Positions 11,856 through 24,351 of a stretch of DNA of 64,000 bases are shown piece after piece. The notes below the pieces were generated by a model. That model had not been told where the DNA came from, searched no databases, and saw only the letters and a list, made by a program, of their open reading frames with translations. Origin of the DNA: Tepidisphaeraceae bacterium. Lineage in GTDB: Bacteria; Planctomycetota; Phycisphaerae; Tepidisphaerales; Tepidisphaeraceae. A program made the translations under genes and the position numbers. The DNA is taken from the NCBI GenBank assembly GCA_035998445.1, contig DASYHQ010000018.1, forward strand, positions 310,001 through 374,000, in the 5' to 3' direction. Position 1 is the stretch's first letter. Every line of letters begins with the position of its first letter.

Positions 11856-11943
11856 TGTCAGTTGTCAGTGGTCCGTTGTCAGTTGTGAAAGACCTTTCGG
11901 CCACGCGTGTCCGCAACGGACAACGGACAACTGACCACGGACA
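11856..11943. repeat. Heptad inverted element between groES and groEL
   Basis: The left arm is four 7-bp units of the type TGTCAGT/GGTCCGT (11856-11883). The right arm is four inverted units of the type ACGGACA/ACTGACC (11916-11943), with a 32-nt spacer. The element begins 19 nt upstream of the groEL ATG and ends 6 nt short of the groES stop, so it fills the intercistronic gap and would form a large mRNA stem-loop. Confidence 0.85.
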
Positions 11944-11949
11944 AATTGC

Positions 11950-12240
11950 TTACTCGACCACTGCCAGGACGTCGTCCTCGCTCATGATCATGAGTTCTTC
12001 GCCGTCGATCTTCACTTCGGTGCCGGCGTAGCTGGTGAAGATGACCTCGTTGCCGACCTTCACGCTGAACGACGACAGCTCGCCGTTGTCCATGCGCTTG
12101 CCCGCGCCGACGGCGATGATCTTGCCGCGCTTGGGCTTTTCCTTGGCGCTGTCGGGCAGCACGATGCCGCTCTTGGTCTTGGATTCAGCTTCGACGCGCT
12201 TCACGAGAATCTTGTCGCCGAGAGGACGTAGCTTGGCCAT
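11950..12240 (-). CDS. groS: Co-chaperonin GroES
   Basis: This 96-residue GroES caps the GroEL chamber. LRPLGDKILVKRVEAE at the N-terminus, GIVLPDSAKEKPKRG (mobile loop) and VGNEVIFTSYAGTEVKIDGEELMIM are all typical. The GGCGCTCC region upstream has no strong ribosome site. It is first in the groES-groEL operon; a further heptad element lies 23 nt upstream. Confidence 0.97.
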   Translation of the reverse strand: MAKLRPLGDKILVKRVEAESKTKSGIVLPDSAKEKPKRGKIIAVGAGKRMDNGELSSFSVKVGNEVIFTSYAGTEVKIDGEELMIMSEDDVLAVVE

Positions 12241-12263
12241 TGTTTGGCGCTCCTTAGTGTGAC

Positions 12264-12342
12264 TGTCAGTGGTCCGTGGTCAGTTGTGAAAGCATTGTGA
12301 TCCGATCCGTTGCAACTGACCCCTGACAACGGATGACGGATG
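12264..12342. repeat. Heptad inverted element upstream of groES
   Basis: The left arm has TGTCAGT, GGTCCGT and GGTCAGT in tandem (12264-12284), followed by TGTGAAA as in the groES-groEL element. The right arm has ACTGACC, CCTGACA and two ACGGATG units (12315-12342). It lies between the response-regulator stop and the groES start. Confidence 0.8.
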
Positions 12343-15142: not shown

Positions 15143-15170
15143 TGTCCGTGGTCAGTGGTCCGTCGTCAGT
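15143..15170. repeat. Single heptad arm upstream of cinA
   Basis: Four exact 7-bp units (TGTCCGT, GGTCAGT, GGTCCGT, CGTCAGT) lie 10 nt upstream of the cinA ATG. No inverted partner arm is visible downstream, so this is either a degraded element or a half-site. Confidence 0.75.
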
Positions 15171-15273
15171 AGGTTGATGCGGCAGCACTGTAACGTACGG
15201 CGGGCGGGTGACAATGGATGATGGCTGGGGGGAAGTACGGCGGCGTCGGTCAATGATCCGCAGCTACGGGTAA

Positions 15274-15325
15274 ATCGAAATCACCCTCACCTAACCTCTC
15301 CCGGAGTACCGGGAGAGGGACCGGA
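15274..15325. repeat. CTCCCGG hairpin repeat
   Basis: The motif CACCCTCACCTAACCTCTCCC is followed by a CGGAGTACCGG loop and a GGGAGAGGG return arm, then ACCGGAG. The same element recurs at 31389-31434, 36590-36634, 36756-36804 and 54061-54114. It is a REP-like dispersed hairpin, here between the SecA-like gene and cinA. Confidence 0.75.
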
Positions 15326-15374
15326 GTCTGGGCCGCGTCGTTCGACAACGGGCGACGGGCCGCAGACCCACCAA

Positions 15375-17312
15375 CTAGAACGGCAGCGACTGATCCATCC
15401 AGTCGTCGTTCTTCAGCACCTGCTTGCGATTGAATCGCGCGATGCGTTCGGCGCGGCTTTGTGCCATCTTGATCAGGCGGTCGGCGCCGATCGCGCGCCA
15501 GTGCCGGCGCGACTGGCGGGCGTGGCGGATGAACAGGTCGTCCTCGACGCAGACGAACTGCTGCGCGCAACCGGGATCGCCCTGGCGGGCGGCGCGGCCG
15601 AAGAGCTGGCGGTCGACGCGGTAGCTGCCGTGCGGTTCGGCGCTGATCACGTGCAGCCCGCCCAGCTCGGCAACGCCGCGGCCCAGCTTGATGTCGGTAC
15701 CGCGGCCGGCCATGTTCGTGGCGACCGTGATGCGCTTCGGTTGGCCCGCCTCGGCGACGATCGTCGCCTCCTGCTCGTTCTGCGCGGCGTTCAGCACGCG
15801 GTGGACGCGGCCCAGCTTCGCCAGCCGACGGCTCACCTCTTCGCTCGCCAGCACGCTGCGCGTGCCCACCAGCACCGGCACGCCCTTGTCGTTCAGCTCG
15901 ATCACGCGTTCGACGACGGCGTCGTACTTCTGGTCCATCGTGTCGAACATCTGCGTCGGCAGCTGCACGCGGATGTTCGGCTTGTTCGTCGGGATCTTGA
16001 TCACCCGGCGGTGGAAGATGTTCCACAGTTCGCCGGCGGCCTCCCAAGCGGTGCCCGTCATGCCGCCCATGATCGGGTACTGGCGGAAGAAGCGCTGGAA
16101 CGACAGGCGCGCCAGATTCTCCTTGTCGGCCGTCACCTTCACGCCTTCCTTCACCTCGATCGCCTGGTGCAGCCCGTGCCGCCAGCTGCGGTCGGCCATC
16201 ACGCGGCCGGTGAACTCATCGATGATCTGTACCTTGCCATCGGGCGCCACAAGATACTGTTCGTCGCGCACGAAGCAGTGCCGTGCCGACAGCGCCTGCT
16301 GCACGAGTTCCTCGCGCCGGCGCTGTCCGCGCCAGAAGCCCTTGTCGTCTGACAGGTGTTCCAGCCGATCCTGCCCGCGGGCGGTCAGCTCGACCTGCCG
16401 CACGGTCCGGTCGATCGTGAAATCTTTGCCCAGCTCGAGCTGCGCGGCCAGATCGTTGGCGGCAATGTACAGGTCGGCGTTGGGCTCTTCCTGTGGGCTG
16501 TTGCTGATGATCAGCGGCGTCACGGCCTCGTCGATCAGCAGGCTGTCGGCCTCGTCGACCAGCACGCGAGACAGCCCCGGCACCAGCAGGCCCGACGCGC
16601 CCCGGCCGCTCATGAGCAGCTGGATCGACGTCTGCGTGCTGTTGCGCAAATTGCCCAGCGCGATCTGGTCGCGCAGGAAGTCGGCGACGAGCTCCTTGCT
16701 GGTGCAGTAGATCACGTCGCGGCGATAGTGGTCGATGCGCTCGCCCTGCGCGGTCTCATGGGTGACGTGGCCGACCTTCAGGCCGCACATCTTGTAAACC
16801 GGGCCCATCTCCTCGGCGTCGCGGGCGACGAGGTAGTCGTTGACCGTGATGACGTGCACCGGCTTGCCATACCAACCCCACAACGTGGCGGCAAGCGACG
16901 CGGTCAGCGTTTTGCCCTCACCCGTGGCCATCTCGGCGATGGCGCCCTGGCACATCGCCAGCGCGCCCATGATCTGCACCGGGTACGGCCGCATGCCCGT
17001 GGCGCGGAACGCGCCCTCGCGGATGATCGCCATCGCGCGCTCGAGCGCCGGTCCGGTCAACCGATCCAACCGCGCCAGTTCGCGCGATTCGGTCACCGCC
17101 TCCTTGAACCGCGCGGCCGACAGGTTCTTGATCTCCGGCTCCAGCGCCGAGATATGCCCTTCCTGCGTGCGCAGCGTCGACAACACCCGCTGCCGGTTTT
17201 TAAAGAACCCGACCCAGCTGTTCACCAGCGCATCGAGCCCCTTCAGCTCCGGCGCTTTCACCCGCCGGGCGTTGAACACGGACCAGAGTTCTTGATTAGC
17301 TAGACGAGACAT
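15375..17312 (-). CDS. Short SecA-like export ATPase
   Basis: This 645-residue SecA homologue shows Walker A MATGEGKT (about 128-135), VNDYLVARDAEEMGP, the DEAD box (253-256, in VLVDEADSLLIDEA), IDEFTGRVM, MGGMTGTA, MAGRGTDIKLG and GRAARQGDPG. It is about 200 residues shorter than housekeeping SecA and ends soon after the second helicase domain, so most of the C-terminal helical part and the zinc tail are missing. It is therefore an accessory SecA. It is last in a block with the PqqD-M50-HlyD gene, suggesting a role in that export system. No Shine-Dalgarno is visible: a heptad arm begins 4 nt before the ATG. Confidence 0.88.
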   Translation of the reverse strand: MSRLANQELWSVFNARRVKAPELKGLDALVNSWVGFFKNRQRVLSTLRTQEGHISALEPEIKNLSAARFKEAVTESRELARLDRLTGPALERAMAIIREGAFRATGMRPYPVQIMGALAMCQGAIAEMATGEGKTLTASLAATLWGWYGKPVHVITVNDYLVARDAEEMGPVYKMCGLKVGHVTHETAQGERIDHYRRDVIYCTSKELVADFLRDQIALGNLRNSTQTSIQLLMSGRGASGLLVPGLSRVLVDEADSLLIDEAVTPLIISNSPQEEPNADLYIAANDLAAQLELGKDFTIDRTVRQVELTARGQDRLEHLSDDKGFWRGQRRREELVQQALSARHCFVRDEQYLVAPDGKVQIIDEFTGRVMADRSWRHGLHQAIEVKEGVKVTADKENLARLSFQRFFRQYPIMGGMTGTAWEAAGELWNIFHRRVIKIPTNKPNIRVQLPTQMFDTMDQKYDAVVERVIELNDKGVPVLVGTRSVLASEEVSRRLAKLGRVHRVLNAAQNEQEATIVAEAGQPKRITVATNMAGRGTDIKLGRGVAELGGLHVISAEPHGSYRVDRQLFGRAARQGDPGCAQQFVCVEDDLFIRHARQSRRHWRAIGADRLIKMAQSRAERIARFNRKQVLKNDDWMDQSLPF

Positions 17313-17316
17313 AAGA

Positions 17317-17410
17317 GATTGCCGATTTTCGACCGCCGATTTTCGATTGAGAAGTCGACCTGCTGAAGTTGCCTTTCAATCGGCAATCGCAAATCCAAAA
17401 TCGACAATCG
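17317..17410. repeat. Heptad inverted element filling a 98-nt gap
   Basis: The left arm is built of 7-bp units GATTGCC, GATTTTC, GACCGCC, GATTTTC (17317-17344) plus GATTG. The right arm (17377-17410) is the inverse, with CAATCGG, CAATCGC and AAAATCG units. It begins 4 nt from the SecA-like ATG and ends at the stop of the M50 gene. The heptad sequence differs from the groES type but the architecture is the same. Confidence 0.85.
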
Positions 17411-19615
17411 TTAGATCCACTTATCCGTCTGGTGCGTCTTCACCAGCTGCCAGAAACGGCGCGTCCAGTTCCACGCGAGCGGCTCGTACCGGACCTTGAA
17501 ACGCACCGTCGCGGTCTGGCCGGGGAGATACTCGGCGTCCGTGGCGTCCAGCGTCATCTTGGCCTCGAACTGCATGCTCATCGGGCGACGCCCCGTCTGG
17601 TCGCTGGGGTCGATCGCGATGCTGTTGCCACCGGCCTGGCCGAGCGCGGCGTGAGGCAACTCGGGCTGAACCGAGTCGTAAATCGTCAGCGTCACCGCGT
17701 TCAACACCGTGCCCACCGCGCCGGCCAACCGAACCTCGACGGGCGACTCGTCATCGGCCGCGTTCATGTTGGCAAGGACCTTCGAATCGCGGATGACCTC
17801 GTAGTCGCGCTGTTGCAGCGCCGCCCGCACGATCAGTGGCCCCTCGGCCGACACCTGACCGATCGACCGGCCGCGCTGCAGGTAGACGCCCTTCAGCTGT
17901 TCCACGTTGGGCGCCAGCAGTTTGCCGGCGATCGGGGCCTTCACTTCAAGCTCGCCCTTCTGCTTCTCGTAGTAGGCGATGTTCTCCAGCGTCAGGTCGA
18001 TCGCTTCCTGATCGATGCGCGCCTGCGCCACGTCGGTCACGCTCGAGAGCATCTTGCGGGCCTGAAGCGACGCCAGGCGCGCGTCGAGCGTCTTCAGGCG
18101 GGCGTCGAGCGTCTCGTCGCGCATGCGCAGGATCACGTCGCCGGGCTCCACGTGTTGGCCGTCGAGGGCGACGATCTCCGTCACCCAACCCTCGGCCTGC
18201 GGGGAGACCATCTGCTTGGCCGACGGTTCGACGATGCCCTTTTCCTCCACGTACACCCAGAACGGGATGACGCCGATCGCGATCACGATCGCCGCCGCCA
18301 CGCCAGCGCAGAACGCGGTCGCCTGCCCGCGCTTGCGGTGCAGTTCGGGCTCGAGCGCCAGGTACTTGAACAGCTTCGACGCCGGCACGACCAGCCACGT
18401 GATGATGCCACCGATGGCCATCAGCACGCCCAGGATCGGGATCTGCCACGTCACCACGAGGATGATGACGATGCCGATGATCGTGCGGTACACCACGCTG
18501 GTGATGTGGTACAGGAACAGCTCGATGCGCTGCCGCACGGGCGGCAGTGGCTGCGTCTGCTTCACGCGGAACACGTGGCGCTTCACCAGCCCCAACGTGT
18601 ACTCGGCGGCCTTCTGCCGCATGTTCGGGATCTCGAGGAAGTCCGACAGGATGTAGTACCCGTCGTAACGCAACAGCGGGTTGGCGTTGAAGATGACCGT
18701 GGTCACGCTGGCCACCAGCATCGCGTTGTACGCCAGCTGGTTGATCAGCGAGTTGCTGTCGGTCGCCAGCCACACGAACGCGCACAGCGCCGCGAAGAAC
18801 ATCTCCACGATCATGCCGGCGCAACCGACGAAGATGCGGTGCCACTTGTTCGGGAAGCTCCAGGCCGTGCTGGCGTCCACGTACGGCGTGGGGATGAAGA
18901 TCAGGAACATGATGCCCATCTCGTGACACTCACCGCCAAAGCGGCGGCACGAGAAGGCGTGGCCCAGTTCGTGGATCAGCTTCACGAAGACGAACACCAG
19001 CCATAGCCAGAAAGCGTTCCACGGGTTGCCGACCATGTCGATCGAGCTGCGCGCCGCATCCTTCACGGCCTCCCAGTGCGGCGCGACGGCGATGCAGGCG
19101 GCCAACAGCGTCAGGATCCAGACGACCGCGCCCTTCCTGCTCAGCATGTGCCGCACCAGCGGCATCCAGCGGACGAGGAAGCGGTCCGGGTCCCACAGCG
19201 GGATCCGCGGGAACATCGCCTGCATCAACCGGCCCTGCAGCTTCTTCTGCTGCTGCTTCTTCTGGCGGCGCAGCAGAACGGTGGCGTCGGGCGTGACGTC
19301 GGCGTCGATCAGGTTGGCGCTGTACAGGTGCGTGAGGATCTGGATGACTTCCGGCTGCGTCGGCGCATCGTCGGCCAACTGCCCGCCTACCAGGTCCCAG
19401 GCCTCTTCCACGGTGCGCGTGCCGTCCAGCAGCCCGACGAAGCGATAAGCGGCGTCCGACAGGCGGTGGAACTGGTTGCCGGCCGGATCGCGCACGACGT
19501 ACCAACGCTCGCCACGGTAGAACTGCCGGCTGATCTGCGCGCTGCTGCGCAGCTTCGCCTTCAGCGTCTTCACGCGATACCAGGACTCGGAAAATGTCGG
19601 GCGGACTGCGAGCAT
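17411..19615 (-). CDS. PqqD-like / M50 site-2 protease / HlyD fusion
   Basis: This 734-residue fusion has a PqqD-like recognition domain at about residues 30-110 (QFHRLSDAAYRFVGLLDGTRTVEEAWDL). Membrane segments follow, with the M50 zinc motif HELGH (215-219) and the second motif NANPLLRYDGYY (310-321), which supplies the metal-binding Asp. A periplasmic lipoyl/HlyD adaptor half occupies about 440-720 (VSPQAEGWVTEIVALDGQHVEPGDVILRM, long coiled coil, VKAPIAGKL). This suggests leader recognition, membrane proteolysis and export coupling in one chain. PqqD-like domains are RiPP recognition elements in known systems; here the substrate is unknown. Confidence 0.85.
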   Translation of the reverse strand: MLAVRPTFSESWYRVKTLKAKLRSSAQISRQFYRGERWYVVRDPAGNQFHRLSDAAYRFVGLLDGTRTVEEAWDLVGGQLADDAPTQPEVIQILTHLYSANLIDADVTPDATVLLRRQKKQQQKKLQGRLMQAMFPRIPLWDPDRFLVRWMPLVRHMLSRKGAVVWILTLLAACIAVAPHWEAVKDAARSSIDMVGNPWNAFWLWLVFVFVKLIHELGHAFSCRRFGGECHEMGIMFLIFIPTPYVDASTAWSFPNKWHRIFVGCAGMIVEMFFAALCAFVWLATDSNSLINQLAYNAMLVASVTTVIFNANPLLRYDGYYILSDFLEIPNMRQKAAEYTLGLVKRHVFRVKQTQPLPPVRQRIELFLYHITSVVYRTIIGIVIILVVTWQIPILGVLMAIGGIITWLVVPASKLFKYLALEPELHRKRGQATAFCAGVAAAIVIAIGVIPFWVYVEEKGIVEPSAKQMVSPQAEGWVTEIVALDGQHVEPGDVILRMRDETLDARLKTLDARLASLQARKMLSSVTDVAQARIDQEAIDLTLENIAYYEKQKGELEVKAPIAGKLLAPNVEQLKGVYLQRGRSIGQVSAEGPLIVRAALQQRDYEVIRDSKVLANMNAADDESPVEVRLAGAVGTVLNAVTLTIYDSVQPELPHAALGQAGGNSIAIDPSDQTGRRPMSMQFEAKMTLDATDAEYLPGQTATVRFKVRYEPLAWNWTRRFWQLVKTHQTDKWI

Positions 19616-19622
19616 TCGATTG

Positions 19623-19710
19623 GGTCCGTTTTCAGTGGTCCGTCGTCAGTCGAGATCGCCCGTCGATCGCTGTCTTTCAACAACGGACAACGGAATACCG
19701 ACGACGGACG
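19623..19710. repeat. Heptad inverted element between GAF-HlyD and M50 genes
   Basis: The left arm has GGTCCGT, TTTCAGT, GGTCCGT and CGTCAGT (19623-19650). The right arm has ACGGACA, ACGGAAT, ACCGACG and ACGGACG (19683-19710). It fills the 100-nt gap and ends 7 nt from the M50-gene start. It belongs to the same heptad family as the groES elements. Confidence 0.85.
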
Positions 19711-19715
19711 AGGTC

Positions 19716-21623
19716 TTACATCCACAGCTTCAGCTGCATGAACTCGACGAGGCGGTGCGTCCAGATCCAGATCAGGGGCTTCTTCTCGATGTTGATGCGG
19801 GCCTCGCCCTCGGCGCCGGGGCGCCAGCTGGGGCTGACCGTGTCGGCCGTCGCGTAGACGGTGAAGACGTTGCTGGATTCCTTCGGCGTGCTCATCGGAA
19901 CGATGCGCTCGATCTTGATCGCGTAGCCCTCGCTCGGCAGCGCGTTAGTGGCGATCTCGCCGGTCTGCGTCTGGTTGATGAACTGGATGTCGCGCTCGTT
20001 GACGGCCAGCTCGACCTTCAGGTTGTCGATCGGGCCGACCTCCATCAGCACATCCTCGCGCTTCACGGGCGAGCCGACCTTGTCGGCCAAATCGCCCTTC
20101 AGCACCTCGCCGTCCATCGGCGCGACTACGGTCGCCTGCGCGACCTGCCACGCGAGCAGATCGGCCTCGGCCTTGGCGGCGTCGTGGTCGGCCATCGCGA
20201 TCTTGTAGTCGGCGATCCTCGTGCGGTCGGCGCGGTGCTTATCAGCCGTGCGCATCGCGCTCAGGGCGCGCTTCTCGGCGTCCAGCTGCTTCAGGCGCAG
20301 TTCTTCGGTCTTCAGCTCGAACAGCTTCTGACCCTTCACGACCTTCTCGCCGGGCTTGGCGTGAACCGCGCCCAGGAAACCTTCGAACGGCGCCGACAAC
20401 GAGGCCTTCTCGACGGCGGTGAAGCGGAAGGGGGCGCTGACGCGGTACATCGGCTCGTAGAACGTGACGAACAGCAACAGCGCGATCGATGCGACCACGA
20501 TCAGCTTCGTGATCATGTACTTCTTGCCGATCGCCTTCTCGCCCAGCTCACGCGTGCTGATGCCCGCCTTGGTGATCAGCCAACGATCGTTGACGTAGCG
20601 GTCCTGCAGCTGCGGGGCGAGCAAGTCGACCGCGACGGCCAAGCCGCTGGCGACATTGGGCCCAAGCGGTTGGTTGGCGGGGAATTCCAGCGTGGTGACG
20701 CCGACGATCTCCTCACCCTTGCGCAGTGGCAGTGACAACACGATGTTGCCCCCCTGCGCCCGCGACACGATCTGGGCCGCCCGCGCAACGTTCGGCGTGC
20801 TGCTGGCGCCAGTGGGGTCGTACAGGACCACTTCCTCCTGGTCCAGGCACTCCTCCATCGCGTTCTGGAGCTGCACGACCAGTTCCTGCTTCTTGTCGAA
20901 CTGTTCAGTGTGCGACAACGCCTTCACCTTGATCGTGCGGCCCTTCAGCCAGCCCAGCGCAACACGCACCGCGCCGCTGCGGTTGGCGAGCTCGTTACAC
21001 AGGTTGCGGGCGGCGGCCTCGAACCCCTCGGCGACGGCGACGGCGGTCGCCAGCTGCAGCACGTGCTGGTGGCTCTGCGCGATCACGCGCGCCTGCTCGC
21101 TGTTGCGGCGCAGCGAGAACAGTTCGAAGTAGCCGGCGACCAATTGCATGCTCATCAGCCGCTGGCGGGCACGCTCCAGGTTCATGCAGCGGGTGATGAC
21201 CGCGCTGGCCGCGACGATCTCACCGTCGGCGCGCAGCAGCGTGACGAGGCAGAACTGCGGTTCCATTGACGTGCCGTCGGCGGCGTTGATCTCGATCGCG
21301 CCGTCCTTGCCCTGGTCGATGCACGGCTTGATGATGTCCTGAAACGCCTGGATGGCGGCGGTTCGCGTCTCGGCGTTGGAATTGTCCGGGCGCACGTGCG
21401 CGATCGGGCGCAGCAGCACGTCGTCGCTCGACTTCTCGAGCATGAAGCCCGCCGCCTCGGTGCCGGCGACGGTAACCGCCTGGGCGGTCACGAGGTCGGT
21501 CACGAACGCCGGCAGGTTCGACCCCGCCGTCAGCAGCCGCTGCACCAGCTTCGAGCGTGACCCTGCCTGGTGGGCGTCCTCCTGCCCCTTCTGTGACTGC
21601 GATTCAATGACTTCGTTGGCCAC
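19716..21623 (-). CDS. GAF-like sensor domain fused to HlyD-type adaptor
   Basis: This 635-residue protein has a cytoplasmic GAF-like region at about 170-340 (VLQLATAVAVAEGFEAAARNLC, VLSLPLRKGEEIVGVTTLEF). One transmembrane helix follows (about 375-395, KLIVVASIALLLFVTFYEP). The periplasmic HlyD/biotinyl-lipoyl adaptor (SAPFEGFLGAVHAKPGEKVVKGQ, coiled coil, VVAPMDGEVLKGDLADKVG) completes it. A GAF domain on the inside of an export adaptor is unusual and could let a small ligand or signal gate the exporter. It lies between the RND adaptor and the M50 fusion in the same operon-like block. Confidence 0.82.
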   Translation of the reverse strand: MANEVIESQSQKGQEDAHQAGSRSKLVQRLLTAGSNLPAFVTDLVTAQAVTVAGTEAAGFMLEKSSDDVLLRPIAHVRPDNSNAETRTAAIQAFQDIIKPCIDQGKDGAIEINAADGTSMEPQFCLVTLLRADGEIVAASAVITRCMNLERARQRLMSMQLVAGYFELFSLRRNSEQARVIAQSHQHVLQLATAVAVAEGFEAAARNLCNELANRSGAVRVALGWLKGRTIKVKALSHTEQFDKKQELVVQLQNAMEECLDQEEVVLYDPTGASSTPNVARAAQIVSRAQGGNIVLSLPLRKGEEIVGVTTLEFPANQPLGPNVASGLAVAVDLLAPQLQDRYVNDRWLITKAGISTRELGEKAIGKKYMITKLIVVASIALLLFVTFYEPMYRVSAPFRFTAVEKASLSAPFEGFLGAVHAKPGEKVVKGQKLFELKTEELRLKQLDAEKRALSAMRTADKHRADRTRIADYKIAMADHDAAKAEADLLAWQVAQATVVAPMDGEVLKGDLADKVGSPVKREDVLMEVGPIDNLKVELAVNERDIQFINQTQTGEIATNALPSEGYAIKIERIVPMSTPKESSNVFTVYATADTVSPSWRPGAEGEARINIEKKPLIWIWTHRLVEFMQLKLWM

Positions 21624-21644
21624 GTTTCACCTTTCCAAATTTGC

Positions 21645-21723
21645 GACTTGCGATCGCCGATACTCGATTGTGCCCTGCGACCTCTTCAAATCGCAAATCC
21701 GCGTTCGTTACGTCGCAAACGTC
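21645..21723. repeat. Heptad inverted element between adaptor and GAF-HlyD genes
   Basis: The left arm has GACTTGC, GATCGCC, GATACTC and GATTGTG (21645-21672), the same GAT-type heptad as 17317-17410. The right arm (about 21687-21723) carries CAAATCG, CAAATCC and TTACGTC units. It ends 1 nt before the adaptor stop. Confidence 0.75.
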
Positions 21724-21724
21724 C

Positions 21725-22606
21725 TTATCGTCCTTCCGCCAGCGCCGCGACGTTCTCGGGCAGCGTAACGGAGACCTGCAGGCCGCTCGAGCGGTTGTCG
21801 GGATTTGGCAGTTCCAACCGAACCAGCTGCGTGTCGCTGGCGGCGTCGGCGACGGGATTGATGTAGATGATTTTGGCGGGAATCGCTTGCGCCTTCTCGT
21901 CACCGACGTGCTTCACCATCAGCGGCGCATTGCGGTCCAGGTGCTGGCTCTGGCGTGTCGGCAGGTGAACCTCGACCCACAGCGGGTTGTTCTGCACCAC
22001 CGTCACCGCGCCCGTCTGCTTCTGCGGGTCGGCCCATTCACCGGGGCCGACGTCGATCGACTCGACCTGCCCGTCGATCGGACTCTTGAGCTCCATCAGT
22101 TCGACCTTCAGCTTCTGCGCATCACGCTCCAGCGCCTTGATTGCTTGCGCCTCCCGCTGAATCTTCTCGCGGAACTGGCCGATCTCCACCTCAAGGCGTG
22201 CCTGTTCTACTTCCGACACGCTTCCAGCCCGATCCTGCAGCAGCTTCTCTTTACGCGCGAGTTGGACCTTGTTCAGCTCGTACTGGGCCAACGCCGCATC
22301 GATCTGCCCGGTGCTGGCCGCTTCCATCTCCAGCGAGGCGAGCCTGCTCTTCTCGATGGTGTCGTCCAGTCGAATCAGAACTTGCCCCTTCGTTACCGTC
22401 TCGCCGGATTTCACTGCCCGTTCGAGGACGATCCCGGGAACCGGCGAGGCCAGCTTCAATCGCTGCGACGGTGCCGTGATGCCGGTAACCGTTGTTGCGC
22501 TAAGGTCCGAATTCAAGGGCGATGACTGGCCGCGAAGATCGGTTGCGAAGACCGACAAACCCACCGCGAGCAAGCCCGCGGCGCCAAAGAGGGTGCGCTG
22601 GATCAT
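21725..22606 (-). CDS. RND/HlyD-type periplasmic adaptor
   Basis: This 293-residue periplasmic adaptor has an N-terminal signal segment (LFGAAGLLAVGLSVFA), a lipoyl half (LASPVPGIVLERAVKSGETVTKGQ), a long coiled coil (about 95-165), the second lipoyl half (ELKSPIDGQVESIDVGPGEW), then a beta-barrel part. It resembles the membrane-fusion subunit of tripartite efflux. No RND pump or ABC transporter follows; the next genes are GAF-HlyD, PqqD-M50-HlyD and a SecA-like ATPase, so it probably serves that system. Confidence 0.82.
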   Translation of the reverse strand: MIQRTLFGAAGLLAVGLSVFATDLRGQSSPLNSDLSATTVTGITAPSQRLKLASPVPGIVLERAVKSGETVTKGQVLIRLDDTIEKSRLASLEMEAASTGQIDAALAQYELNKVQLARKEKLLQDRAGSVSEVEQARLEVEIGQFREKIQREAQAIKALERDAQKLKVELMELKSPIDGQVESIDVGPGEWADPQKQTGAVTVVQNNPLWVEVHLPTRQSQHLDRNAPLMVKHVGDEKAQAIPAKIIYINPVADAASDTQLVRLELPNPDNRSSGLQVSVTLPENVAALAEGR

Positions 22607-23370: not shown

Positions 23371-24351
23371 ATGCGGCACGCGCTCATCAGTTGCATCGCG
23401 ATGTGTCTTCTAATGATCGGCTGTGGCACGCCCAGCCTGCTGATCACGCCCGTCTCGAACAACAACGCGCTTCAGGAGATCACCGTGCAGCCCGGCCGAG
23501 GGTGGTCGCCGGACAAGATTGCGATCATCGAGATCGAAGGCCTGATCAGTAACTCGCGCACCGAAGGCCTGTTAGGTGGCGGCGAGAACCCGGTTTCCCG
23601 CTTTACCCAGCAGATCGAAGCAGCCGAGCGCGATCGGAAGGTCAAGGCGATCGTTCTGCGCCTCAATTCGCCCGGTGGCACGGTGACTGGCTCCGACACG
23701 CTCTACCAGCTGGTCGAGCGATACAAGAAGCGCACCGGTAACCCGGTCATCGCCTCGGCACAGGAAGTCGCCTGCAGCGGCGCCTACTACGCGGCGCTGT
23801 CGGCCGACCAGATCGTGGTGCAGCCCACTAGCGTCGTCGGCAGCATCGGCGTGGTCTTCAACGCGTTCGAATTCAGTGGTGGGCTCTCGAAACTTGGCAT
23901 ACGGACCGACGCCATCAAGAGCGGCGAATTTAAAGACATGGGCTCGCCGTTCAAGCCCCTGCCGGTGGACGAACGCGCCCTGATGCAGGCGATGGTGGAC
24001 GAGTACTTCAACCTGTTCGCATCGCTGGTCAAAAAGCACCGCCCCGGGCTGAAAGGCTCCGACTTCGCCGTCGCGACGGACGGGCGGGTCTTCTCCGGTG
24101 CGCAGGCGGTCGAGATCGGCCTGGCCGACCGAATTGGCTTGCTTGCCGACGCGATCACGCTCGCCCGGCAGGCGGCCAACGCGCCCAAGGCCAAGGCGAT
24201 CTTATACAAACGGCCGCACGGGTACTCGGGGTCGATCTACGCATCGTCCCACGACCCCCAACCCCGGTCCGATACGCTGACGTTGCGGCTTCCAGAGTCT
24301 GTGACGCCATTGCCGGGCGGCTTTTACTACCTGTGGGAAGCCGGCCGGTAA
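23371..24351 (+). CDS. SppA-like signal peptide peptidase (S49), lipoprotein
   Basis: This 326-residue S49 serine peptidase carries a lipobox (LLMIGC), so it is probably membrane-anchored on the periplasmic side. The nucleophile is Ser136 (VACSGAYYA) and the general base is probably Lys188 (GEFKDMGSPFK); the 52-residue separation equals that of B. subtilis SppA. LRLNSPGGTVTGSD is the usual strand-turn. It cleaves leftover signal peptides. CAGGAG precedes the ATG by about 8 nt. Confidence 0.92.
   Translation: MRHALISCIAMCLLMIGCGTPSLLITPVSNNNALQEITVQPGRGWSPDKIAIIEIEGLISNSRTEGLLGGGENPVSRFTQQIEAAERDRKVKAIVLRLNSPGGTVTGSDTLYQLVERYKKRTGNPVIASAQEVACSGAYYAALSADQIVVQPTSVVGSIGVVFNAFEFSGGLSKLGIRTDAIKSGEFKDMGSPFKPLPVDERALMQAMVDEYFNLFASLVKKHRPGLKGSDFAVATDGRVFSGAQAVEIGLADRIGLLADAITLARQAANAPKAKAILYKRPHGYSGSIYASSHDPQPRSDTLTLRLPESVTPLPGGFYYLWEAGR

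Follow-up and report, generated by a model that had tools for sequence, protein, structure and literature searches.

A cluster of four genes encoding an RND-type adaptor, a GAF-HlyD protein, a PqqD-M50-HlyD fusion and a short SecA appears, judging from its sequence, to be a widely conserved and apparently undescribed bacterial machinery, most likely one for export. The cluster is probably dedicated to sorting and exporting giant surface proteins that begin with an LExLExRxLL tag in place of a Sec signal peptide. In the open-access full-text literature, no paper was found that brings these parts together. The cluster lies in the window, a stretch of 64,000 nucleotides from the 5.8 Mb genome of a Tepidisphaeraceae bacterium. 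A sequence-only reading of this DNA had described four same-strand genes with a PqqD/RRE domain, an S2P zinc protease (HELGH), three HlyD-type adaptors, a GAF-like domain and a SecA-family ATPase. All four frames are open on the minus strand, as are the features within them, with intergenic gaps of ~100 bp each, and every one of these domains was recovered by profile or fold searches apart from the GAF-like domain of the window's own protein.

The small adaptor, an RND/HlyD-type periplasmic protein of 293 aa (21725-22606), scores 118.6 bits against the TIGR01730 RND_mfp model (cut-off 94.9) and has an N-terminal hydrophobic segment at residues 6-25 in a KD scan. The GAF-HlyD protein of 635 aa (19716-21623; HlyD_3, 1.6e-16) consists of a cytosolic GAF-like region, a single transmembrane segment at residues 367-394 (20442-20525; KD19 > 1.6) and a periplasmic HlyD part. 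Both proteins match Pfam HlyD_3 or HlyD_D23, and with the M50 fusion they make up the three HlyD-type parts of the window cluster. A GAF domain is found in 66 of the 67 members of the GAF-HlyD alignment, whereas none was detected in the window's own copy; the region probably senses or regulates. The sequence-only reading had also noted the lack of an adjoining ABC transporter, RND pump or outer-membrane factor, and none is present in the scanned annotated ORFs around it in the window. The statement does not extend to all relatives, as some of their clusters include an outer-membrane factor, and TolC-family proteins are encoded elsewhere in the window's genome, not beside the cluster.

Operon promoters and terminators at the window cluster are no more numerous than in shuffles. 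Short GTGGTCCGTTGTC-like repeats occupy intergenic positions 11868-12337, 15148-15356 and 19635-19698 of the window (13 matches with at most two mismatches versus 2.45 expected). The gap between the M50 and SecA genes (17313-17410) contains short internal repeats such as TCGAAAATCGGC, and a 20-base probe from this gap has a single match in the window. An SppA-type signal peptide peptidase is encoded near the cluster on the opposite strand (23371-24351), with no sign of membership.

The M50 protein is a fusion of 734 aa (17411-19615) with matches to PqqD, Peptidase_M50 and HlyD_3. Its AlphaFold2 model (mean pLDDT 88.5, with helical membrane segments) starts with an N-terminal domain free of membrane segments, enters the membrane from residue 157 and ends in a HlyD part. 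The isolated N-terminus scores 24.9 bits against Pfam PqqD (cut-off 23.4), a model matched in 76 of 83 members. In the prediction, this RRE or PqqD-like domain (residues 14-106, 19298-19576), the proposed leader-binding part, is built of three strands followed by three helices with a core pLDDT of ~90. VIA Z scores of 9.2 to a lasso-peptide B1 protein, 9.0 to TbiB1 and 7.8 to PqqD were obtained, and the lasso-peptide RREs matched are structures solved with a leader peptide. As modelled, the domain is an RRE winged helix. In known RREs, the leader is held by the third strand and the third helix; of the invariant residues, R51 belongs to that strand and Q87 to the beginning of that helix.

The membrane core of the fusion carries the zinc motif HELGH at residues 215-219 (18959-18973) and the second S2P motif NPLLRYDGY at residues 312-320 (18656-18682), the latter giving D318 as the third zinc ligand. 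Across 43 homologues, H215, E216 and H219 as well as N312, P313 and D318 are invariant, and among 87 homologues HExGH is kept in 84 and NxNPL..D in 85. By these alignments, the zinc site is conserved, with the S2P motifs in the predicted membrane core. The periplasmic HlyD or membrane-fusion part (residues 451-712, 17480-18265) resembles MexA in Foldseek (E 1e-13) and AcrA and MacA in VIA (Z 15.7), and a fold search with the full model returned a match list filled by HlyD proteins. A second M50 gene of the window's genome, a frame of 724 aa at G000:C18:560116-562137, matches the Pfam model more strongly than the cluster M50 and is probably an ordinary site-2 protease.

The combination of an RRE with a zinc protease could also point to RiPP maturation and export, in which both would act on a small precursor in the manner of daptide or epipeptide pathways. 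The RRE fold does resemble leader-binding RiPP enzymes, and the M50 core is related by sequence to the daptide and epipeptide (YydH) intramembrane metalloproteases, with which it would share RRE-type leader recognition. Yet, the M50 protein scores 163 bits against the daptide protease model and 43 against the epipeptide model, far under the curated cut-offs of 300 (NF041824) and 225, and, unlike these proteases, it carries a HlyD part in the same chain. A non-systematic look at the clusters brought up neither a conserved small gene nor a modifying enzyme, and the conserved partners are giant proteins, making this explanation very unlikely. A small peptide precursor encoded nearby, for which the sequence-only reading had suggested a search, is not supported as cargo; linked to the cluster are giant surface proteins bearing the LExLExRxLL tag.

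The fourth protein is a short SecA-like ATPase of 645 aa (15375-17312) that is limited to the two motor domains plus the preprotein cross-linking domain, with Pfam matches to SecA_DEAD (9.7e-90), P-loop_SecA and SecA_PP_bind. By alignment, the Walker A motif TGEGKT (residues 130-135, 16908-16925) is kept in 70 of 74 operon SecAs, and the DEAD box (residues 253-256, 16545-16556) is kept as DExD in 72 of them. The protein can be aligned to residues 14-589 of B. subtilis SecA and no further; because it stops near residue 589, it has neither the scaffold with its two-helix finger nor the wing nor the C-terminal part. The same parts are missing from 73 operon SecAs, which extend a median of 13 residues past the aligned motor. 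It is the second SecA of the window's genome; a 1,297-aa open frame encodes the other. The presence of an additional SecA-family ATPase next to the canonical SecA recalls the accessory SecA2 systems, but the window protein is far under all SecA2 model cut-offs, ends early as described, and has HlyD and M50 proteins as partners. Comparison with phage records gave sporadic matches only, in short unannotated records.

A search with the M50 alignment found at least 80 genome loci with an M50 match in records titled Planctomycetota, Nitrospirota, Verrucomicrobiota, Pseudomonadota, Desulfobacterota, Omnitrophota, Acidobacteria, Rokubacteria and others. Adding six plasmid loci and the window to the 80 genome loci listed gave a set of 87, throughout which the core genes are all on one strand. 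The order GAF-HlyD, M50, SecA is kept in 67 of the 87 loci, and in most others the missing gene would lie beyond the contig end; where GAF-HlyD is lacking, the contig ends there. SecA is absent despite sufficient room in four genome loci (L093, L116, L118 and L144) and one plasmid locus (L044). Within the same set, an RND-type adaptor accompanies 65 loci and TolC-like genes 20. The conservation in at least 80 loci of many phyla rules out a chance grouping of the four genes, and the linkage proposed from the single window thereby holds in relatives. Likewise, the appearance of a recognise, cut and export machine working without an ABC transporter agrees with a motif-based test, in which an ABC-ATPase-like ORF was present within 3 kb of the cluster in two of the 87 loci and inside it in none.

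Additional genes accompany the cluster in some lineages. A gene of the SapC family (PF07277) is located in or near it in several proteobacteria and one Nitrospira locus (L040, L043, L121, L125, L137, L139, L152 and L154), and its product may be an accessory part. In Methylosinus, a DUF3467 gene is found between the giant gene and GAF-HlyD (L039:11726-12046).

It could be argued that the HlyD parts derive from a multidrug or metal efflux pump, with the other genes as passengers, as the small adaptor is by model score a good RND-type adaptor. However, the cluster has no pump permease, and none was seen to adjoin it constantly in the loci surveyed. The linkage of M50, SecA and GAF-HlyD across phyla, together with that to tagged giants, speaks further against an efflux set, to which we assign a negligible probability.

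The cargo candidates are surface proteins of very large size whose N-terminus bears the LExLExRxLL tag, described by NCBIfam as LEPR-XLL (NF012209) and by Pfam as Planc_extracel (PF07595), the latter being the planctomycete form of the LEPR-XLL tag. In 2004, the motif RRLxxExLExRxLLA was put forward as a new export signal (quoted in PMC8567305), with no receptor or exporter named there. The tag considered here is the same one, now tied to a gene cluster. At alphaproteobacterial plasmid loci, the gene upstream of the cluster encodes ~8,800 to 12,900 aa and is annotated as LEPR-XLL or LamG, and a third such locus has an LEPR-XLL gene nearby; the N-termini of the giants at these plasmid loci (MEALEPRFLLSADP, FDTLEPRVLLNADV and VEQLEPRLLLAADF) all match NF012209. 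Tagged ORFs adjoin the cluster in ten of the genome stretches read among the 80 loci listed; one of the ten is L089, from the same family as the window, where the tagged ORF is directly behind SecA. A comparison of coordinates added L105 (Thioclava pacifica DSM 10166), L106, L127, L137, L145 and L155, so that tagged genes adjoin the cluster in at least 16 of the 80 genome loci listed. In Pirellula-like planctomycetes, a diverged cluster of SecA, GAF-HlyD, RND and M50 genes is flanked by several tagged proteins.

Co-occurrence at the genome level follows the same pattern. NF012209 matched 44 of 49 cluster-bearing non-planctomycete genomes, with matching ORFs there reaching 17,246 aa, versus one of 14 control genomes. 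Among 199 Pseudomonas genomes, an M50 homologue was found in 30 of the 31 with a tag and in 58 of the 168 without (Fisher 1.8e-11, kinship ignored), and 29 of 33 tag genes are situated within ~31 kb of the homologue. For 392 Planctomycetota genomes, five or more PF07595 matches were found in 20 of 98 with an M50 relative and in one of 294 without (Fisher 3e-12, with genome-level statistics such as these ignoring shared descent). In the window's family, tag and cluster are both present in every genome examined. Overall, the linkage between tag and cluster is well supported, and its strongest part is the physical linkage across many phyla. Fewer than three tag matches are found in 68 of the 98 Planctomycetota genomes with an M50 relative, and no recognisable tag was detected in several Phycisphaerae relatives examined. 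In such tag-poor planctomycetes, variants may escape the motif model, or the cargo may be of another kind. A family with autotransporter repeats, considered as cargo before the tag was found, gave no lead.

In the window's genome, a tag profile built from relatives only gave 47 matches (E <= 1), mostly open frames of 500 to 4,900 aa, and ~40 tagged proteins lack a signal peptide. Their domains, including CBM, PKD, Ig-like, beta-helix, RTX calcium repeats and reprolysin, are extracellular in kind. The N-termini read are basic and without a hydrophobic stretch, with a maximal KD12 of 0.66-1.72, whereas three Sec-type N-termini encoded in the window reach 2.2-2.9. A regular-expression search detected no tagged gene inside the window, and none adjoins the cluster there; the cluster appears to serve many unlinked genes in this genome.

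A diverged form of the cluster, present in Pseudomonas as well as on plasmids of Citrobacter and E. coli, combines TolC and an adaptor with a shorter HlyD protein and an M50-HlyD protein, and the stretches read contain no SecA. The neighbours of this form begin with tags such as ALEPRILLDAAA or FALESRQLFDGAA. The absence of SecA from this form and from some other loci means that SecA is no universal motor, and since the SecA-less form keeps its tagged neighbours, SecA is not essential to the relation between tag and cluster. A SecA-less relative is carried on plasmids of E. coli, Citrobacter and Hafnia (27 records, e.g., L044:1-11758), and in the Citrobacter record read a giant DUF4347/Ig-like protein is encoded beside it. 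For comparison, RSP of IncHI plasmids is a plasmid-borne, large, Ig-like secreted protein, for whose export a requirement for the conjugation ATPase TrhC has been reported (PMC6764697).

From these parts, we infer a sequence of tag binding, cleavage, SecA-driven transport and conduit formation. The cytosolic RRE domain of the M50 protein would bind the tag, and the short SecA, lacking the parts that normally work on SecY, would unfold and push the chain. Within the membrane, the zinc protease may remove the tag, while the HlyD parts of the M50 protein and GAF-HlyD, together with the RND-type adaptor, would form a conduit joining a TolC-type outer-membrane channel. Alternatively, tagged proteins could exit by ordinary Sec or another route, with the cluster acting afterwards in processing, anchoring or surface release and the short SecA being chaperone-like. 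This order of events would suit the canonical SecA of the window's genome, the diverged form without SecA, and a zinc protease that could act on a membrane-bound tag. However, no Sec-like hydrophobic stretch is seen in the tagged N-termini read, and the RRE precedes the first membrane segment, so that its simplest placement is in the cytosol, as would fit a step ahead of translocation. In addition, three HlyD-type parts, and TolC in some relatives, argue for a trans-envelope conduit, and we regard this alternative as unlikely. Returning to dedicated export of the tagged giants, it may even represent a separate kind of secretion system, an idea towards which we lean slightly, in which the RRE-S2P-HlyD fusion takes the tagged giants, HlyD and TolC provide the conduit, and a stripped SecA that no longer acts on SecY drives export in most lineages.

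Type I secretion (HlyB-HlyD-TolC), as in the export of giant RTX adhesins, offers a close parallel in the HlyD-type adaptor parts, the TolC-type channel of some relatives, the giant repeat-rich or RTX-containing cargo and the trans-envelope logic. In contrast to type I secretion, the operon has no ABC transporter, in place of which a SecA-derived ATPase and the RRE-S2P-HlyD fusion are found. The cargo signal of type I secretion is C-terminal, whereas the tag linked to the cluster is N-terminal.

To our knowledge, LEPR-XLL proteins, which are among the largest in bacteria, have no known exporter, and the planctomycete motif has been without a named receptor since 2004. As one conserved cluster is linked to both, the question of receptor and exporter becomes directly testable. 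A SecA working without the two-helix finger would, if confirmed, be a novelty in SecA biology. The system is widespread, with a relative riding on Enterobacteriaceae plasmids, and, if the proposal is true, the cluster would be the missing receptor and exporter for proteins with the planctomycete extracellular motif and for LEPR-XLL proteins in many phyla.
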